From Streptomonospora alba (GTDB taxonomy: Bacteria; Actinomycetota; Actinomycetes; Streptosporangiales; Streptosporangiaceae): a stretch of DNA of 64,000 nt. Positions within the stretch are counted from its first letter, which is position 1. Each line of letters starts with the position of its first letter. Shown piece after piece: positions 2,991 through 29,095 of this stretch. Location of the stretch: positions 1 through 64,000 of the forward strand of contig NZ_JROO01000010.1 of NCBI RefSeq assembly GCF_000826685.1, in the 5' to 3' direction. The notes beneath the pieces are model-generated. The model saw nothing but the letters and a program-made list of their open reading frames with translations, was not told where the DNA came from and did no database searches. A program made the position numbers and the translations under genes.

Positions 2991-3620
2991 ATGGTGTCAA
3001 TCAGTAATGAGGAGGAGGGGGAGGAGCCTCCCTCGGATCCGCTGGCGCAGAGCCTGCTCGACGCGGCCCGCGAGTCCATCGCGGTGTTCGGGCTGCGCCG
3101 GCTGACTCTCACCGACGTCGCCCGGCGCGCCGGCGTGAGCCGCCCGACCGTGTACCGGCGCTGGCGAGACATGGACACCCTCCTCGGCGACCTGCTGACA
3201 CGCGAGATGCGCGCGGTGGTGGCATCGGCCGCGCCCCGCGCCGCCGCGGAAGGGGGCGACGGGCGCAGCCGCCTGGTGGGCGGCGCCGCCTGCGTCCTGG
3301 CCGACCTGCGCGCGCACCCGCTGATGGCCCGCATCCTCGACACCGAACCCGAAGCGCTGGTCACCTACACCTTCCGCCGACTGGGCTCCAGCCAGCGCAA
3401 CGCCCTGGCCACGATCGAGGAGCAGATCCGCGCCGGCCAGGCCGACGGCTCCGTCCGCCCCGGCGATCCCGCCCAGCTCGCGCGGATGGTGCTGCTGGTG
3501 GTGCAGAGCGCGGCCCAGTCGTGGCGCCTGACCGAGGACGTCCTCCCGCTGGAGGGCCTCACCCGAGAGGTGAGCCGCATGCTCGACGGTTACCTGCAAC
3601 CGGGGGAGGGCGAGTCCTGA
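2991..3620 (+). CDS. TetR/AcrR-family regulator of the lipid/GlpD cluster
   Basis: A 209-aa protein with an N-terminal helix-turn-helix (TLTDVARRAGVSRPTVYRRW, about residues 37-56) and an all-helical ligand domain. It represses or activates its neighbours in response to an unknown, probably lipid-related, ligand. The first ATG at 2991 was chosen because it sits 17 bp from the divergent flavoprotein start and no ribosome site supports an upstream alternative. Gene order (DAG kinase, AGPS-like, TetR, GlpD) corresponds to mycobacterial Rv2252, Rv2251, Rv2250c and Rv2249c, which supports a shared regulon. Confidence 0.85.
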   Translation: MVSISNEEEGEEPPSDPLAQSLLDAARESIAVFGLRRLTLTDVARRAGVSRPTVYRRWRDMDTLLGDLLTREMRAVVASAAPRAAAEGGDGRSRLVGGAACVLADLRAHPLMARILDTEPEALVTYTFRRLGSSQRNALATIEEQIRAGQADGSVRPGDPAQLARMVLLVVQSAAQSWRLTEDVLPLEGLTREVSRMLDGYLQPGEGES

Positions 3621-3700
3621 TGGTTCCGACGGCACCGCCGATCCGCACGAAGAAGCCCGCGCCGGATCCGGCGCCCCTCCGCGAAGGCGGGCGGGCGTGA
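3620..3700 (+). CDS. 26-codon micro-ORF coupling TetR to GlpD
   Basis: ATG at 3620-3622 shares its A with the TetR stop (TGATG) and follows a GGGGGAGGG purine tract about 10 bp upstream. It runs 26 codons, and its TGA (3698-3700) overlaps the GTG of glpD as GTGA. The peptide is basic and proline-rich (MVPTAPPIRTKKPAPDPAPL then REGGRA). Coupling at both ends suggests it passes ribosomes from TetR to GlpD rather than encoding a functional protein. It may equally be chance; there is no independent evidence of translation. Confidence 0.35.
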   Translation: MVPTAPPIRTKKPAPDPAPLREGGRA

Positions 3701-5241
3701 CCCGCGCGAGCGCCGCGGGCGCCTCCCTCAACGCCGCGCGCCGCAGTCGCGACCTCGACCGCCTCGACCGCGATCCCGACGTCGACCTGCTGGTCGTGGG
3801 CGGCGGAGTCACGGGAGCCGGTATCGCCCTGGACGCGGCCTCGCGCGGGCTGTCGGTGGTGCTGGCCGAAAAGCACGACCTGGCCTTCGGCACCAGCCGG
3901 TGGAGCTCCAAGCTCGTACACGGCGGCCTGCGCTACCTCGCCACCGGCCAGGTCGGCATCGCCCGCGAGAGCGCCCGCGAGCGCCACGTCCTGCTCTCCC
4001 GCACCGCCCCGCACCTGGCGCGCAAGCTGGCCATGCTGCTGCCCCTGCACAGCGGGATCGGCCGCGCCCAGGCCGCCGTGACCCGCGCCGGGCTGCTGGC
4101 GGGCGACGCGCTGCGGATGTCGGCGGGCACCCCCGGTTCGCTGCTGCCCGCCTCCCGCGGCGTCTCACGCCGCGACACCCTCGCCCTCGCGCCGGGCCTG
4201 CGCCCCGAGGGCCTGCGCGGCGGGCAGCTGTCCTTCGACGGGCAGTTGGTCGACGACGCCCGCTTCGTCGTCGGCCTGGCGCGCACGGCCGCCGCCCACG
4301 GCGCCTGCGTGCTGACCCGCTGCGCCGCCGAAGAGCTGCACGGCGACCGCGCCCTGCTGCGCGATCGGATCACCGGCTCCGCACTGCAGCTGCGCCCGCG
4401 CGTGACCGTCAACGCCACGGGCGTGTGGGCCCAGGAACTGGTCCCGCAGGTGAAGCTGCTCCCCAGCCGGGGTACGCACCTGGTGCTCGACCAGAGCGCC
4501 TTCGGCGGGCTGCGCTCGGCGCTGACCGTCCCGGTGCCCGGCGACCCGAGCCGCTTCACGCTCGTGCTGCCCCAGCAGGACGGCCGTGTCTACGTCGGCC
4601 TTACCGACGAACCGCTCGACGGCCCCACCCCCGACGTGCCGACGGTGCCCGACCACGATGTCGACTTCCTGCTGGACGTCCTCGGCGGCGTGCTGGCCGA
4701 GCCGCCGGACCGGGGCGACGTGGCCGGCGCCTACGCCGGGCTGCGGCCGCTGCTGGACGCCGGAGAAGGGCGCAGCGCCGACGTCTCCCGCCGCCACGCG
4801 GTCCTGACGTCGCCGGAGGGTGTGGTGACGGTGGTCGGCGGGAAGCTGACCACCTACCGGCGCATGGCCGAGGACGCCGTGGACGTGGCCCTCGCGGGTG
4901 CGGGCCTGCGCGCGGGGCCGTGCCGCACGGGCTGGCTGCCGCTCGTGGGAGCGGACGCCCCGGAACGCCTGCGCCGCCTCGATGCGCCCGCGCGCCTGGT
5001 GTCCCGATACGGCACCGAGGCCCTCGCCGTGCTCGCCGAGGCCCGGGACCGCCCCGAGCTGCTGGAGCCCCTCGCCGCGGGGGTCACCGCCGCGGAGCTG
5101 CGCTGGGCCGTCCGCCACGAGGGCGCCCTGGACGAAGCCGACCTCTTGGAGCGCCGTACCCGTGCCGCCCTGGTCGAGGGGGATGCCGACAGCCTGAAGG
5201 AGGCCGCCCGCGACGCCCTGTCCCTGCGGGCGAGCGGGTGA
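3697..5241 (+). CDS. glpD: glycerol-3-phosphate dehydrogenase, FAD-dependent
   Basis: A 514-aa member of the GlpD/DadA flavoprotein family: N-terminal dinucleotide fold VVGGGVTGAGIALDAASRG (about residues 31-49), the FAD-contact segment FGTSRWSSKLVHGGLRYL (about 67-84) and a C-terminal VVGGKLTTYRRMAEDA helix. It oxidises sn-glycerol-3-phosphate to dihydroxyacetone phosphate and passes electrons to the quinone pool at the membrane. The GTG start at 3697 overlaps the micro-ORF stop; the ribosome-site-like GCGGGCGGGC is weak, consistent with coupled initiation. DHAP is the substrate precursor of the AGPS-type reaction encoded next door, so lipid backbone supply is a likely theme. Confidence 0.9.
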   Translation: MTRASAAGASLNAARRSRDLDRLDRDPDVDLLVVGGGVTGAGIALDAASRGLSVVLAEKHDLAFGTSRWSSKLVHGGLRYLATGQVGIARESARERHVLLSRTAPHLARKLAMLLPLHSGIGRAQAAVTRAGLLAGDALRMSAGTPGSLLPASRGVSRRDTLALAPGLRPEGLRGGQLSFDGQLVDDARFVVGLARTAAAHGACVLTRCAAEELHGDRALLRDRITGSALQLRPRVTVNATGVWAQELVPQVKLLPSRGTHLVLDQSAFGGLRSALTVPVPGDPSRFTLVLPQQDGRVYVGLTDEPLDGPTPDVPTVPDHDVDFLLDVLGGVLAEPPDRGDVAGAYAGLRPLLDAGEGRSADVSRRHAVLTSPEGVVTVVGGKLTTYRRMAEDAVDVALAGAGLRAGPCRTGWLPLVGADAPERLRRLDAPARLVSRYGTEALAVLAEARDRPELLEPLAAGVTAAELRWAVRHEGALDEADLLERRTRAALVEGDADSLKEAARDALSLRASG

Positions 5242-5299
5242 GGCGGCCGGTGTCCTGTTCGGCCGCCTCGGTCGCGAGCCGACGGTGCGGGCTTTCCCC

Positions 5300-5360
5300 G
5301 TTGATCTTGTACCTACGGTCACATGTGATCGCTCACAATGACCGTAGGTACAAGATCAAC
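5300..5360. repeat. palindromic element, copy 1 (22-bp arms)
   Basis: Perfect 22-bp inverted arms (5300-5321 and 5339-5360) separated by a 17-nt loop. The arm core GTTGATCTTGTACCTACGGT is identical to that of a second copy at 27916-27978. The loop holds its own small palindrome, TGTGA-TCGC-TCACA (5324-5337). It lies downstream of glpD and of the oppositely oriented aconitase-like gene, so it may act as a bidirectional terminator, but identical arms with different loops suggest a dispersed palindromic repeat family. Confidence 0.85.
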
Positions 5361-5446
5361 GCTGATGCGTAGAGCCGGGGCCGGCTGCGCGACCTCACCG
5401 TTCACAAAGAGGACCTAGGCGTAGGCCCGCGGTCGTCTCGCATTCC

Positions 5447-7405
5447 TCACTCCATTTCGCGGGCCAGCAGGGGGATCTGGCCGCCGGCGAGGACGGCTTC
5501 CACCTGCGCCGTCGAGAGCCGGTGCCGCAGCCGGTACTCCTCGCCCTTGGTCTCGTTGCGCACGGTCACCTCGCTGTGCGCGGGCAGGGTCCGGGTGAGG
5601 TCTTCGAGGACGAGCACGTCGCCCGCCTCGATGCTGTCGTAGTCGGCGGGGTCGGCGAACTCCAGCGCCAGCACGCCGAAGTTGGCGAGGTTCTGCCAGT
5701 GGATACGGGCGATCGACTTGGTGATCACCGCGCGCAGACCGAGGTAGCGCGGCGTGATGGCGGCGTGCTCGCGCGACGAACCCTGGCCGTAGTTCTCCGC
5801 TCCGACGACGAAGTGCCCCGGGCCGTCGGCGAGTTCCCGCGCCCGCCGCGGGTAGTCCTCGTCGATCCGGGTGAAGGTGAACTCGGCCAGCTTGGGCACG
5901 TTGGAGCGGAACGGCAGCGCCGCGGCGCCCGCAGGGGAGATCTCGTCGGTGGAGACGTCGTCGCCGACCTTGAGCAGGACCGGCGCCTCGATGCGGTCGG
6001 GCAGCGGAGGGAAGTCCGGCAGCGCCGAGATGTTGGGGCCCTTGACGAGCTCGACGTGCTTGGCCTCCTCCGCCGGCGGAGGAGCCACGAGCATCCGGGT
6101 GTTGACGCTGGAGCGCTCCGGCAGCTCCACCCTCGGATACGGCATGTCCAGCTTCTCGGCCAGGTCGCGCGGATCGGTGATGACCCCGGTGAGCGCGGAG
6201 GCCGCCGCCGTCTCCGGCGAGCACAGCCACACCGAGTCCTCCTTGGTGCCCGAGCGGCCGGGGAAGTTGCGCGGGAACGTGCGCAGCGAGTTGCTGCCCA
6301 CCGCCGGCGCCTGGCCCATGCCGATGCAGCCCATGCAGCCCGCCTGGTGGATGCGGGCTCCGGCGCCGATCAGGTCGAAGGTCGCGCCCATCTTCGTCAG
6401 GTCGGCGAAGATCTGGCGCGAGGAGGGGTTGACGTCGAAGCTGACCGCGCTGTTGGTCTGGCGCCCCTTGACCATCGCCGCCACGATGGCGAAGTCGCGC
6501 AGCCCCGGGTTGGCCGACGAGCCGACGACGACCTGGTTGACCTCCGCGCCGGCGGCCTCGCGCACCGGCACCACCTTGTCGGGCGCCGAAGGCATGGCGA
6601 TCAGCGGCTCGATCGACGACAGGTCGATCTCGTCGGTGACGTCGTACTCGGCGTCGGGGTCGGCGAGCACTTCGACGAAGTCGTCCTCGCGGTCCTCGGC
6701 GCGAAGGAAGTCGCGAACCGCCTCGTCCGCGGGGAAGACGGTCGTGGTGGCGCCCAGCTCGGCGCCCATGTTGGCGATGACGTGGCGGTCCATCGCGCTC
6801 AGCGTGTCGACACCCGGCCCGTGGTACTCGATGATGCGGTTCAGCCCGCCCTTGGTGCTGTGCCGCCGCAGCATCTCCAGGATGACGTCCTTGGCCGAGG
6901 TCCACTCCGGCAGTTCGCCGGTGAGCCGCACGCCCCAGATCTGCGGCGCGCGCACGCGCAGCGGGCGGCCGGCGATGGCCATGGCGACCTCCAGCCCGCC
7001 CACGCCCACGGCCAGCATGCCCAGCGATCCCGCGGCGCAGGTGTGGGAGTCGGAACCGACCATCGTCTTGCCGGGCACACCGAAACGCTGCATGTGGGTG
7101 GGGTGGGAGACGCCGTTGCCCGGCTTGGAGTACCACAGCCCGTAGCGCTGGGCCGCGGACTGCAGGAACTCGTGGTCCTCGGCGTTCTTCTCGTCTGCCT
7201 GAAGCAGGTTGTGGTCGACGTACTGCACGCTGACCTCGGCCCGCGTCCGGTCCAGCCCCAGAGCCTCCAGCTCCTGCATCACCAGGGTGCCGGTGGCGTC
7301 CTGGGTGAGCGTCTGGTCGACGCTCAGCGCGATCGGCTGCCCGGGCACCATCTCGCCTTCGACCAGGTGCGACTCGATCAGCTTGTGTGCGACTCCGCGT
7401 CCCAT
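5447..7405 (-). CDS. aconitase-family hydratase (monomeric, short)
   Basis: A 652-aa protein containing all three aconitase 4Fe-4S cysteines (Cys123 in SHTCAAG, Cys357 and Cys360 in CMGCIGM) and the C-terminal swivel domain with QGSSREHAA. It is far shorter than AcnA (about 900 aa) and resembles the 640-660-aa hydratases that act on citrate-like substrates in varied pathways. The ATG at 7405 is preceded by GGAAGGAGCGAG, a good ribosome site, so the longer upstream frame is not used. It lies at the downstream end of a catabolic cluster holding a CoA-transferase and a citryl-CoA-lyase-like gene, which suggests hydration of an aconitate-like intermediate rather than a housekeeping TCA role. Confidence 0.85.
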   Translation of the reverse strand: MGRGVAHKLIESHLVEGEMVPGQPIALSVDQTLTQDATGTLVMQELEALGLDRTRAEVSVQYVDHNLLQADEKNAEDHEFLQSAAQRYGLWYSKPGNGVSHPTHMQRFGVPGKTMVGSDSHTCAAGSLGMLAVGVGGLEVAMAIAGRPLRVRAPQIWGVRLTGELPEWTSAKDVILEMLRRHSTKGGLNRIIEYHGPGVDTLSAMDRHVIANMGAELGATTTVFPADEAVRDFLRAEDREDDFVEVLADPDAEYDVTDEIDLSSIEPLIAMPSAPDKVVPVREAAGAEVNQVVVGSSANPGLRDFAIVAAMVKGRQTNSAVSFDVNPSSRQIFADLTKMGATFDLIGAGARIHQAGCMGCIGMGQAPAVGSNSLRTFPRNFPGRSGTKEDSVWLCSPETAAASALTGVITDPRDLAEKLDMPYPRVELPERSSVNTRMLVAPPPAEEAKHVELVKGPNISALPDFPPLPDRIEAPVLLKVGDDVSTDEISPAGAAALPFRSNVPKLAEFTFTRIDEDYPRRARELADGPGHFVVGAENYGQGSSREHAAITPRYLGLRAVITKSIARIHWQNLANFGVLALEFADPADYDSIEAGDVLVLEDLTRTLPAHSEVTVRNETKGEEYRLRHRLSTAQVEAVLAGGQIPLLAREME

Positions 7406-25445: not shown

Positions 25446-27797
25446 GTGCAGGCTTTTAAATCGATTCACATCCCCCTGCGGCAGGCCCTGCGCGCCGCCG
25501 CGGCCGGTGCGTGCGCGGCGGCGCTCGCCTTCACCGGCGCCGGCGCTGTCCACGCCGACCCCTCGGCAGGCGGTCACGGCGGGCACGGCGGCCAGGGCTC
25601 CGGCGGCGTGCAGCTGGAGGACCTGGACCGCGGGCTGGTCGCCGTCTCCACCGGCGACGGCGTCTTCCTGAGCTGGCGGCTGCTGGGCCACGAGACCAAG
25701 GCCGCCACCCCCCACGGCCTGAAGGCGCCGGCCTTCCGCGTCTACCGCGACGGTCGCCGCGTCGCCACCGTCACCGACGGCACGAGCTACCTCGACACCG
25801 AGGGCTCGCCCGACGCGGAGTACCGCGTGGCCGCCGGCCGCGGGGGAGGAGGCGGCTCCTCGGCCGCGGTCTGGCCCGAGGGGCACTACGACCTGCCGTT
25901 GCGCAAGCCCGAGGGCGGCACCACCCCGACCGGCGAGGCCTACACCTACACCGCCAACGACATGAGCGTCGGCGACGTCACCGGCGACGGCCGCTACGAG
26001 TACGTCGTCCAGTGGGACCCGTCCAACTCCAAGGACGTCTCCCAGGTCGGCTACACCGGCAAGACCTACATCGACACCTACGCCCACGACGGCACCCTCC
26101 TGCACCGCATCGACCTGGGCGTCAATATCCGCTCCGGCGCCCACTACACCCAGTTCCTGGTCTACGACCTCGACGGCGACGGCCGTTCGGAGCTGATGTT
26201 CAAGACGGCCCCGGGCACCAGGACCGTCAGCTACGGCCCCGACGGCGAGGCGGTCTCCGAGCAGTACATCACCATCCCGCAGGAGGACGTCGAGGCGGGG
26301 CGCTCCCACAGCGACGACTACCGGATGAGCGCCGAGGACTACTACGACCACCTGGTCGGGATGTTCCAGGACTGGCACGAGCACCCCGAGGTCGAGGCGG
26401 GCAACTGGCCGGCCACCCTGGAGGAGGCCTTCGGGATCGAGCCCGCCTACGACTACCCGCTCTCCCGCGCCGACGCCGAGGAGCTGGCCGACTACTTCGT
26501 GGACACCTACGCACCCGGCCGCAGCGAGCGCAACTCGCTGCGCGAATTCGAGGGCTTCGTGCTCACCGGGCCGGAGTACCTGACGGTCTTCGACGGCGAG
26601 AGCGGATCCGAGCTGGACACCGTCGCCTATGAGCCTCCCAGGGGCGACGACGGCCTCATGTGGGGCGACTACGCGATGTCGCGCATCGAGCCGGGCAACC
26701 GCGTGGACCGGTTCCTCTCCGGGGTGGCCTACTTGGACGGCAGCACGCCCTCGGCGGTCTTCGCCCGCGGCTACTACACCCGCGCCACCCTGGCGGCCTA
26801 CCGCTTCGACGGCGACGAACTGCGCAAGCAGTGGCTGGTCGACAGCGGCCACGCGCCGATGTCCAACCCGTTCGACGACTCCCCGCACGGAGTCGAGGGC
26901 ACCGACCCCGAGTTCGGCACCCTGACCACTCAGGGCAACCACCAGATGAGCTCGGCCGACGTCGACGGCGACGGCAGGCAGGAGATCGTCTACGGCGCGG
27001 CCACCATCGACGACGACGGTTCGCTGCTGTACTCCTCCTACGCCCTCGGCCATCCCGACAGCGCCGTTCCGGGCGAGCGGGTGAAGCTGGGCCACGGCGA
27101 CGCCCTGCACGTCGGCGACTTCGACCCCGGGCGCGACGGCCTGGAGATCTGGGGCGTGCACGAGGGCGCGACCTCTGCTCCCTACGGCTTCGCGATGCGC
27201 GACGCCGCCACCGGCGAGGTCCTCTTCGGCGAGTACACCGGAGCCGACACCGGCCGCGGCATGGTCGGCGACATCGACCCCCGGACGCCGGGTCTGGAGG
27301 CCTGGTCGTCGATGCCTCCCGATCAGGAGGTCGACGCCGGACTGTGGAGCGCCGAGGGCGAGTTCCTCGGCCGCGACGGCGTGCCCGGCACCAATATGAG
27401 CATCCGCTGGGCAGCGGACGGCACCACCCAGATCGTCAACGGCACGCGGAACCCCACCGTCGACGACTACAGCGACGGGACCCTGCTCACCGCCGAGGGC
27501 ACCCGCACCAACAACGGCACCAAGGGCAACCCTTCGCTGGTCGCCGACGTCTTCGGCGACTGGCGCGAGGAGCTGTTGCTGCGGACCGAGGACTCCGAGG
27601 CGATCCGCATCCACACCCCGACCGAGCAGAGCGACCGCACGCTCTACACCCTCATGCACGACCCGCAGTACCGAGTGGGCATCGCCGGCCAGCAGACCGC
27701 CTACAACCAGCCGGCCTACCCCGGCTTCTACCTGGCGGCCGACACCGACTGGTCGCGGGTGCCCCTCCCGCGGGCGCACTACCCCGGCCGCGGCTAG
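25446..27797 (+). CDS. secreted rhamnogalacturonan lyase, PL11
   Basis: A 783-aa protein with a Sec-type signal (basic start, hydrophobic Ala/Leu stretch, cleavage near HADP at about 37-38), then a fibronectin-like N-domain and the eight-bladed propeller of polysaccharide lyase family 11. Repeated calcium-binding loops are visible: VTGDGRYEYVVQWD, YDLDGDGRSELMFKT, DVDGDGRQEIVYG and DVFGDWREELLLR. It cleaves the rhamnogalacturonan-I backbone of pectin by beta-elimination outside the cell, like YesW/YesX. GTG at 25446 is preceded by CGGGAGG. Its products would be taken up elsewhere; galactan side chains fit the GH42/ABC genes 3-8 kb on. Confidence 0.93.
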   Translation: MQAFKSIHIPLRQALRAAAAGACAAALAFTGAGAVHADPSAGGHGGHGGQGSGGVQLEDLDRGLVAVSTGDGVFLSWRLLGHETKAATPHGLKAPAFRVYRDGRRVATVTDGTSYLDTEGSPDAEYRVAAGRGGGGGSSAAVWPEGHYDLPLRKPEGGTTPTGEAYTYTANDMSVGDVTGDGRYEYVVQWDPSNSKDVSQVGYTGKTYIDTYAHDGTLLHRIDLGVNIRSGAHYTQFLVYDLDGDGRSELMFKTAPGTRTVSYGPDGEAVSEQYITIPQEDVEAGRSHSDDYRMSAEDYYDHLVGMFQDWHEHPEVEAGNWPATLEEAFGIEPAYDYPLSRADAEELADYFVDTYAPGRSERNSLREFEGFVLTGPEYLTVFDGESGSELDTVAYEPPRGDDGLMWGDYAMSRIEPGNRVDRFLSGVAYLDGSTPSAVFARGYYTRATLAAYRFDGDELRKQWLVDSGHAPMSNPFDDSPHGVEGTDPEFGTLTTQGNHQMSSADVDGDGRQEIVYGAATIDDDGSLLYSSYALGHPDSAVPGERVKLGHGDALHVGDFDPGRDGLEIWGVHEGATSAPYGFAMRDAATGEVLFGEYTGADTGRGMVGDIDPRTPGLEAWSSMPPDQEVDAGLWSAEGEFLGRDGVPGTNMSIRWAADGTTQIVNGTRNPTVDDYSDGTLLTAEGTRTNNGTKGNPSLVADVFGDWREELLLRTEDSEAIRIHTPTEQSDRTLYTLMHDPQYRVGIAGQQTAYNQPAYPGFYLAADTDWSRVPLPRAHYPGRG

Positions 27798-27833
27798 GGA
27801 CGCACCCCGGACCGGCCCAGAACCGGCCCAGCA

Positions 27834-27874
27834 GCGGTGCCCGTGTCCGCCTCAGCCCCGGACACGGGCACCGC
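27834..27874. terminator. strong terminator after the PL11 lyase gene
   Basis: Perfect 15-bp arms (GCGGTGCCCGTGTCC at 27834-27848, complement at 27860-27874) around an 11-nt loop, 36 bp after the stop codon. It is followed by a 13-bp direct repeat (GACCGGCACCGCG twice). Confidence 0.8.
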
Positions 27875-27915
27875 GACCGGCACCGCGAGCCCGACCGGCA
27901 CCGCGCCCGGGAGCG

Positions 27916-27978
27916 CGTTGATCTTGTACCTACGGTAAGTGAAAGCGATTTCCCGTCACCGTAGGTACAAGATCAACG
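27916..27978. repeat. palindromic element, copy 2 (21-bp arms)
   Basis: Perfect 21-bp inverted arms (27916-27936 and 27958-27978) around a 21-nt loop. The 20-bp arm core is identical to copy 1 at 5300-5360, but the loop is unrelated and contains TGAAAGCGATTTCC (27940-27953), the reverse complement of which resembles the PL11 operator. It lies between the convergent PL11 and PrpF-type genes, beyond the PL11 terminator. Confidence 0.85.
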
Positions 27979-28009: not shown

Positions 28010-29095
28010 TCAGCGGGGGAAGACGGTCCCGTCGAACAGTTTGCGGGCGGTGCGGATGACGGCCGACCGGCCCACCTCGGGTGCCGGGCCGGAGCCGTCG
28101 ACCTCCACGTCGACGGCGAGCGTGCCGGAGGGGTGCTCGATCTCCACCGGCGCGCCCGGAGCGGGTGCGGCGAACAGTTCGGCGCCCACCGCGCCGTCGA
28201 GCATCAGCGCGGTCACCGCGGTCACGCCGCCCAGCACCCCGATCGAGGGGTGAGGGCGCACCGGGATGAACGTGCGGGTGCAGATCGCGCCGCCCTCGCG
28301 GGGTGCCGCCACCAGGGTGGTCTTGGGCACCGAGCTGTCCGTGACGTCGCCCAGGCCCATCAGTTCGCCGGCCCGCGTGCGCAGCGCGTCGACGCGTTCG
28401 GCCAGGGCGGTGTCGGCGGCCAGGTCGGCGACGGGTTCGTAGCCGGTGACTCCCAGATCGGCCGCTCGCACGACCACGACCGGCATTCCGTTGTCGATGC
28501 AGGTGACGGGGGTTCCGTCGATCTCGTCGCGCAGCCGTCCGGTGGGCAGCAGACTGCCGCACACCGACCCCTCGGTGTCCGCGAAGTCCAGGGAGACCGG
28601 CGCCGCGGCGCCCGGCACACCGGAGACGGCCGTCGTGCCGGAATAGTCGACGCGGCCGCCGGGGGTGGCGAAGGTCGAGACGGCGGCGCCGCCGGTGTTG
28701 ACCATGTGGACGCGTACCGAGGTGCGCTGGGGTCCGGCCGGCACCAGGCCGCGCTCGACGGCGAACTGGCCGACCCCGGCGAGGAGGTTCCCGCAGGTTT
28801 GCCGGTCGGAGACGGTCGGCTCGTCCACACCGAGCTGCAGGAACAGGTAGTCGATGTCGTGGTCGGCTCCGGCCGCGGCCGGAGCGACGATCGCGACCTT
28901 GCTGGTGACCGACTGGGCGCCGCCGATCCCGTCGATCTGGCGGGGGTCGGGCGTGCCCATGATCCGCAGGAGCAGGTCGTCGCGCCGCCGGGGATCTTCC
29001 GGCAGGTCTTCGGCGAGGAAGTAGGCGCCCTTGGAGGTGCCGCCGCGCATCAGCATGCAGCGGGTTCCGTCGTCGGCGGCCGCGGCTGTGCTCAC
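28010..29095 (-). CDS. PrpF/4-oxalomesaconate tautomerase (GalD)-family isomerase
   Basis: A 361-aa PrpF-family protein: CMLMRGGTSKGAYFLAEDLP at the start, IDGIGGAQSVTSKVAIV, and DRQTCGNLLAGVGQFAVE with the catalytic Cys. The second half holds a matching diaminopimelate-epimerase-like fold. Family members isomerise double bonds of tricarboxylates: aconitate in methylcitrate metabolism (PrpF) or 4-oxalomesaconate in gallate catabolism (GalD). No prpB/C/D is nearby, so the substrate is open. GTG at 29093-29095 was taken as the start. It may work with the aconitase-like gene at 5.4 kb, but they are 21 kb apart. Confidence 0.85.
   Translation of the reverse strand: MSTAAAADDGTRCMLMRGGTSKGAYFLAEDLPEDPRRRDDLLLRIMGTPDPRQIDGIGGAQSVTSKVAIVAPAAAGADHDIDYLFLQLGVDEPTVSDRQTCGNLLAGVGQFAVERGLVPAGPQRTSVRVHMVNTGGAAVSTFATPGGRVDYSGTTAVSGVPGAAAPVSLDFADTEGSVCGSLLPTGRLRDEIDGTPVTCIDNGMPVVVVRAADLGVTGYEPVADLAADTALAERVDALRTRAGELMGLGDVTDSSVPKTTLVAAPREGGAICTRTFIPVRPHPSIGVLGGVTAVTALMLDGAVGAELFAAPAPGAPVEIEHPSGTLAVDVEVDGSGPAPEVGRSAVIRTARKLFDGTVFPR

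Follow-up and report, generated by a model that had tools for sequence, protein, structure and literature searches.

The window analysed here is the whole stretch from position 1 to 64,000 (64,000 bp, forward strand) of contig NZ_JROO01000010.1 of the actinobacterium Streptomonospora alba, and it contains two copies, each 63 bp long and of the form CGTTGATC...GATCAACG, of a dispersed palindrome family that we call PAL. Copy 1 (5299–5361) lies between a forward gene (3697–5241) and a reverse-strand gene (5447–7405, its start as placed by our own gene caller), 59 and 87 bp from their ends; copy 2 (27916–27978) lies between a forward gene (25446–27797) and a reverse-strand gene (28010–29095), at distances of 120 and 33 bp. 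Both copies are located between convergent gene ends, as a preliminary description made from the letters of this DNA had it. The orthologue, in Streptomonospora sp. PA3, of the gene ending before copy 1 likewise has a PAL past its 3' end, and a homologue of the gene ending before copy 2 also adjoins a PAL in a genome titled Glycomyces fuscus. Copy 1 belongs to a recent subfamily, A, and has uninterrupted 22-bp inverted arms around a 17-nt loop with its own 5-bp stem (TGTGA-TCGC-TCACA), and copy 2, of an older and diverged subfamily, B, has uninterrupted 20-bp arms around a 21-nt loop with GAAA-GCGA-TTTC. The perfect arms, the two loop sizes and the small palindrome in each loop had all been noted before and are confirmed here, and both small palindromes fold as a second stem. 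The left flank of copy 1 (5286–5298, + strand) resembles those of other subfamily A copies (GGGCTTTCCCC type), and its right flank (5362–5379, + strand) is common to them (CGCTGATGCGTAGAGCCGGG, from 5360). A separate GC-rich hairpin upstream of copy 2 (27831–27877, or 2914–2960 of locus L050) is outside the element and appears terminator-like. Folded as DNA, the + strands of copies 1 and 2 give −29.7 and −23.1 kcal/mol (z −12.7 and −10.3), and none of 200 shuffles is as low. A 16-mer arm core (up to three mismatches) has four matches in the window, against a mean of 0.11 in dinucleotide shuffles. No Rfam family at gathering thresholds and no tRNA were found in the window.

Far from being confined to the two window copies, a case for which the preliminary description had allowed, PAL is present in at least 50 copies in the S. 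alba genome (G000; 5.9 Mb, 110 contigs, 97.5% complete, in the same genus group as Streptomonospora sp. PA3). An 18-mer arm with up to two mismatches has 58 forward and 59 reverse matches there, and its reversed control has none. Full elements, defined as exact 12-mer arms with 30–40 bases between them, number 50, all of 59 bp and running from TTGATC to GATCAA; allowing 15–60 bases in the fetched loci returned the same 50, and a 9-bp outer core finds 56 elements. We collected 55 full copies from 54 loci of this genome, leaving out the deleted or split remnants at L093, L098 and L099. They form two groups: group A, with 33 near-identical copies that share flanks and include window copy 1, is recently amplified, and group B comprises 22 diverged copies, including window copy 2.

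The arms are near-constant across PAL copies and the inner stem is variable. Conserved arms had been reported from the window, and this part of the claim stands; the loops, held to be unrelated and free, turn out to be mostly paired, and a CG at columns 29–30, in one of two orientations, is found in 93 of 94 copies from S. alba (54 of 55) and genomes G004, G005 (Streptomonospora sp. PA3) and G066. Because this CG is nearly universal, the loops look like diverged forms of one inner stem. Among 78 unique oriented sequences, pairing follows the register i+j=60 in columns 1–21 (fractions 0.55 to 1.0) and i+j=59 in columns 24–27 (0.77 to 0.87), and this shift of register means that one strand of PAL has one extra base. 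Nocardiopsis copies, judged by eye, have 3- or 4-base loops without the extra base. In a set of 61 sequences, for which group A was thinned, one copy without CG was left out and relatedness was not controlled, each of the three stem parts has a higher paired fraction than any of 500 shuffles (0.95, 0.78 and 0.72 versus maxima of 0.89, 0.70 and 0.59), which is not the case for double changes and pair types. The loop has the same orientation as the flanks in 13 S. alba copies and the opposite one in 16; the corresponding numbers for N. alborubida plus the Glycomyces-titled genome are 10 and 16, with four undecided. Bulge or flank orientation shows no clear bias relative to gene direction (11 against 9, and 4 against 8). 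Integron attC sites have outer boxes RYYYAAC ... GTTRRRY. PAL differs from them in that it starts with GTTGATC and ends with GATCAAC in S. alba, and its outer two bases vary between genomes.

Arm sequence varies by species, and the exact arms are found in only one of six genomes of the genus, that of S. alba. The 9-bp outer core is present in seven of 150 family genomes, with 56 elements in S. alba, 28 in G004, 26 in G095 (N. algeriensis), 20 in G005, six in G066 and one each in G001 and G231, and its reversed control gives none over the same 150. An arm search matched five of 341 family genomes, the single matches in G016 and G188 being lone arms. In a scan of named genomes, the carriers include at least Nocardiopsis alborubida, N. 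halotolerans, N. sinuspersici, N. algeriensis, Nocardiopsis sp. TSRI0078, 'Candidatus N. merdipullorum', Streptomonospora nanhaiensis, Streptomonospora sp. PA3 and the record titled Glycomyces fuscus. Among the named-genome matches listed there is a single 72-bp match in Streptomyces sp. JJ36, and those listed from other phyla look unrelated by eye, as do 14 palindrome-type stretches on viral contigs. N. alborubida has, besides the main one, a second, gene-matching PAL subfamily, GATCTTGCTNCCAG. Its 20-base pattern, with up to three mismatches, has 13 matches in N. alborubida and seven in G096, none of them reversed; the other nine genomes gave one match in G005 and one reversed-control match each in G000 and G001.

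PAL sites differ between related genomes. Eight S. alba loci could be aligned on both flanks to 0.8 Mb of Streptomonospora sp. PA3 sequence. At seven of them PA3 has no PAL, and at the eighth, that of window copy 1, its PAL lies beyond the same gene in a gap about 4 kbp longer. PALs are kept between the same genes in S. alba and G004 at three places (L054/L146, L057/L140 and L072/L141), which were drawn from loci chosen for having PALs and so are no measure of retention. At each of them, the copy has the arm of its own genome (GTAC... versus GTAG...), both sides being changed, and the pair at columns 12–48 reads C-G in one of the two genomes and G-C in the second. Some PALs have thus persisted and become homogenised, or stayed functional as their partner changed, or else the same place received an insertion twice.

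The position of PALs relative to gene ends, for which a check had been proposed, is skewed towards convergent genes. By our own simple gene caller, 27 of 54 S. alba copies are in convergent gaps, 20 in co-directional and seven in divergent ones, versus 28, 82 and 39, respectively, for the 149 remaining gaps of 60 bp or more in these loci; over all sampled genomes, S. alba included, the numbers are 70, 75 and 11 of 156. At five copies (L051:3695, L057, L059, L070 and L077), the neighbouring gene ends in the first bases of PAL, at a distance of −4. There the TTGA of PAL supplies or overlaps the stop codon of the neighbour.

Such positions, the strong hairpins and the three orthologous sites shared with G004 are what would be expected if PALs were selected 3'-end signals (bidirectional terminators or mRNA-stabilising hairpins), with the linked nuclease gene described below a mere passenger. 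However, no T-run was seen by eye 3' of the hairpin at the two window copies or at the S. alba copies listed, so that PAL has the hairpin of an intrinsic terminator without its T-run. The seven of eight alignable sites without PAL in Streptomonospora sp. PA3 and the recent amplification of 33 near-identical copies also speak against this explanation, which moreover leaves similar PALs on both sides of one gene family unexplained, and we regard it as unlikely.

Subfamily A PALs are often part of mosaic units that begin or end at CTAG (L053, L073, L090, L094, L068, L052, L055 and others), a tetranucleotide that is rare (119 sites in 397 kbp) and that at unit ends is in several cases a TAG stop codon. 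One such unit end, as a 34-base pattern with up to three mismatches, has three matches in the S. alba genome. PALs might be bystanders inside MITE-like repeats of an ordinary insertion sequence (IS), for example a CTAG-targeting one. In keeping with this, CTAG marks the start of one unit end in eight places, one unit site is empty in Streptomonospora sp. PA3, and 19 of 33 A copies have a CTAG no more than 130 bp away. The same is true of only five of 22 B copies, however, the flanks of PALs in other genomes look different by eye, and no transposase for such units was identified in the stretches examined. We consider this explanation very unlikely, and the least probable of those discussed here. 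No empty target sites for A flanks were found in the S. alba loci and the window. Subfamily A may nevertheless have been spread by another enzyme, or by a second route, inside CTAG-bounded units.

Insertion sequences also enter PALs themselves. At L094 (G000:C22), an IS110-family element at 3058–4376 (PF01548, PF02371, NF033542) splits the right arm of a PAL, in the order ...TACAAGATC, IS, TCAACGGGG... Its upstream non-coding part contains TTACAAGATC (3130–3139) and CGTTGA (3156–3161), both matching the PAL arm, and these two stretches read as the left and right target guides of a bridge RNA should, which suggests a bridge-RNA-like guide. Target-guide rules for IS110 elements, and IS621-type elements aimed at REP sequences by their bridge RNA, are described in PMC11208160. 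The L094 element resembles IS621-type IS110 elements in sitting in a PAL arm with matching guide stretches, and it uses PAL as a target rather than being the enzyme of PAL. In G066, a similar IS end terminates four of six palindromes, at the edges of contigs. An IS at L099 (1822–3059) splits the palindrome centre, and the same is seen at one end at L098, near 3032; we take this IS to be IS30-like by its transposase.

Many dispersed extragenic palindromes that form hairpins recall the REP and REPIN sequences. According to the respective reports, RAYT genes are always flanked by two inverted REPs with which they coevolve, the palindromes being kept by complementary mutations (PMC2817692), REPINs are REP doublets forming hairpins (PMC3116915), REPs attract insertion sequences (PMC1525189), as PALs do too, and the REP end tag is of GTAG or CGTC type (PMC3733652); none of the actinobacterial names looked for was found in the available text of the last. 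PAL has no GTAG or CGTC end tag: S. alba feet are mostly CG-TTGATC, and GTAG is found only inside the arm. It differs, furthermore, in its arms of about 20 bp in a 59-bp element. A linked REP-type Y1 transposase, which the preliminary description had proposed to look for, was not borne out. PF01797 matches in three of ten genomes (G001, G004 and G067) and in none of G000, G005, G066, G095 and G231, that is, it is absent from five of seven PAL-bearing genomes, and Y1 (RAYT) is rejected as the general partner of PAL. With their Y1 genes, G001 and G004 may have a Y1 route. Since the PAL system fails the defining Y1 test, we do not file it as REP-RAYT.

A search for genes common to PAL neighbourhoods led instead to one protein, of about 320 residues; no classical transposase was recognised among the 25 shared-neighbour clusters listed. 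The protein is low-copy (zero to six matches per genome at E 0.001). Its six best homologues in 21 genomes are in G004, S. alba, G066, N. alborubida, the Glycomyces-titled genome and S. nanhaiensis, and each of the six has a PAL no more than about 160 bp from one or both ends of the gene. PALs are present on both sides in the first four of these genomes, the second one in S. alba being 858 bp away. The S. alba unit (C32:82547–84571) reads PAL, gene, PAL, with the second PAL about 0.86 kbp beyond the gene start, and a typical unit is about 1.2 kbp long. The neighbouring genes differ among the first units (L329–L332); the loci of the Glycomyces-titled genome and S. nanhaiensis are syntenic. DNA homology between the G004 and S. 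alba units (L329/L330) starts at a PAL edge, and that between the G004 and G066 units (L329/L331) ends 3 bp beyond a PAL edge, whereas at the opposite end it reaches none in either pair. One end each in two unit pairs thus coincides with the repeat, as in an IS.

We extended the survey to 40 genomes of the N. algeriensis group, 19 of which have a homologue at 1e-50. The 31 loci considered below are 28 of the 29 survey loci plus L329–L331, the one left out (L351) being a fragment with no adjoining palindrome. PALs are found on both sides of the gene at 12 loci, on one side at five and on neither (GATCTTG type) at 14; for the 25 loci outside the discovery set, which include L384 and L385, seen earlier without PALs, the numbers are eight, three and 14. 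The PAL-less homologues are chiefly more distant, yet those at L389 (69%), L393 (66%), and L381 and L383 (64%) match the closeness of some homologues that do have PALs. Streptomonospora sp. PA3 and N. algeriensis carry PALs and have homologues without adjoining PALs, so that mobilisation there would need another source or a unit since lost. With only seven PALs found by the same scan in 800 kbp of Streptomonospora sp. PA3, a density that may not fit other genomes, flanking of the gene by chance is very unlikely. The PAL-gene-PAL unit is well supported, and the linkage of the PAL family with the gene is solid: it extends to at least five neighbourhoods in three genus groups.

The two PALs of one unit resemble each other. 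Identity within units averages 0.914 (with one low value, 0.61), versus 0.647 between units, where one of 132 values reaches 0.914. Arm distance tracks protein distance (Mantel r 0.425, 0 of 9999 permutations, n = 17). This correlation reflects co-inheritance and not binding, and shared ancestry alone could give it. Among 12 units the PAL pair is direct in seven, inverted in four and undecided in one, unlike the RAYT genes with their inverted REPs throughout, and inspection by eye of the 24 bp outside these units shows no evident target-site duplication. Of 119 viral-contig stretches matching the patterns of the protein, none encodes a relative. The preliminary description had likened the window palindromes to mobile palindromic repeats, and the high copy number, the PA3 gaps without PAL, the recent near-identical copies and the PAL-flanked gene all uphold that comparison.

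The N-terminal 200 residues of the protein match profiles of AbiEi, the antitoxin of type IV toxin-antitoxin systems (residues 20–200, E down to 7.7e-21). With E values up to 10 allowed, Pfam AbiEi_4 is found in 13 of 13 homologues (best 7e-12), the members shown being below the curated cut-off. The protein differs from AbiEi antitoxins in having a C-terminal nuclease-like domain. The invariant residues of its C-terminal third (E, D, ExD, H and DR.RQN) make up what we take to be a DUF559/Vsr-like nuclease pattern; the Pfam DUF559 profile does not score on the protein, and no NCBIfam model matched it. REase_MTES_1575 (PF18741) matches six of 13 homologues weakly (best E 0.026) and has no match in the S. 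alba genome at E 0.001. An AlphaFold model from two sequences has a pLDDT of 36, and the best matches to solved structures are weak (E 0.27 and 0.65). Judged by the motif and the weak profile matches, the C-terminal domain may be PD-(D/E)XK-like. No published link between AbiEi/DUF559 proteins and dispersed palindromes was found in a search of the top-ranked, mostly non-subscription literature.

Taken together, PALs are probably REPIN-like non-autonomous palindromes served by this AbiEi-nuclease protein, whose own gene is PAL-bounded. The window copies would then be non-autonomous PALs, and the autonomous form would be the PAL-gene-PAL unit. The AbiEi winged-helix part would bind the PAL arms, as AbiEi antitoxins are reported to bind inverted repeats (PMC7319586), and the PD-(D/E)XK-like C-terminus would nick or cut at the extruded or single-stranded hairpin, after which PAL (in trans) or the whole unit (in cis) would be copied to gene-end sites. 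Cutting and repair from sister copies might keep the arms of one genome alike, flipping of the loop relative to the flanks would be expected of a long hairpin that extrudes, and a solo PAL, like a solo LTR, could be what is left when the two PALs of a unit recombine. This sequence of binding, cutting and copying is the simplest reading because of the anatomy of the unit, the co-inheritance and the turnover of sites, and from comparisons of sequence we strongly infer a role of the AbiEi/nuclease-like enzyme in moving PALs.

A nuclease could also act in the manner of a homing enzyme, cutting PALs so that repair brings its gene into PAL sites, with some other process spreading the PALs themselves. 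Entire PALs flanking the gene and arms that are alike within a genome, as repeated cutting and repair would give, are both consistent with this. A classical homing gene, however, interrupts its site and leaves half-sites, whereas here both PALs are whole, and the arrival of solo PALs at new sites would have no explanation; we therefore give this alternative little weight, about as little as the 3'-end signal. Within the favoured reading, that of palindromes served by the AbiEi-nuclease protein, a bolder proposal is that the system represents a new class of transposable element, in which an AbiEi-PD-(D/E)XK transposase acts on extruded hairpins and PALs are both its ends and its non-autonomous progeny. 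We put the chances of this at slightly less than even.

PAL resembles the REPIN-RAYT arrangement in that a gene is flanked by two covarying repeats, here at 12 of 31 loci, and departs from it in that the partner belongs to another enzyme family, with an AbiEi part and a nuclease-like domain in place of a Y1 HUH transposase. Those REP systems found with a described partner enzyme use the Y1 HUH type. A palindrome family whose partner is an unrelated nuclease-like protein would point to more than one origin of this lifestyle; if true, the REPIN-RAYT arrangement would have been invented independently, and the orphan AbiEi-nuclease proteins of actinobacteria would gain a role. The 17 natural loci would then provide a matched enzyme-substrate series that opens specificity to direct testing.

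Several other repeats and records were encountered. At L101, L266, L277 and L311 of N. algeriensis, the palindromes are longer (82 bp, feet included) and are arrayed in tandem, 217–246 bp apart. Among the matches listed, Streptomonospora sp. PA3 has a second abundant palindrome family, of 88 bp (GCCGCCGAGCGCACG...CGTGCGCTCGGCGGC; L161–L200 and L148), and a 60–66-bp palindrome family around GTCGAGGGTGTCCGTG. Long arrays that are CRISPR-type by eye, with the repeat ...TCCCCGCGTGCGCGGGGA, are present on G005:C20 (L173 and L174). G343 and G342 (L238, L243, L259 and others), whose records are titled Glycomyces fuscus TRM 49117 and Streptomonospora nanhaiensis 12A09, share their gene places with G103 and G130. 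The latter two are assigned to the genus of N. algeriensis, a grouping with which the record names Glycomyces fuscus and Streptomonospora nanhaiensis disagree. Finally, paralogues of the nuclease gene occur near other palindromes (GCGGGGATTTCACCGG...) at L350 (2639–2697, G000:C18) and L348 (G004:C2), and L389 and L390 are near yet other ones; these four loci are possible further enzyme-palindrome pairs.
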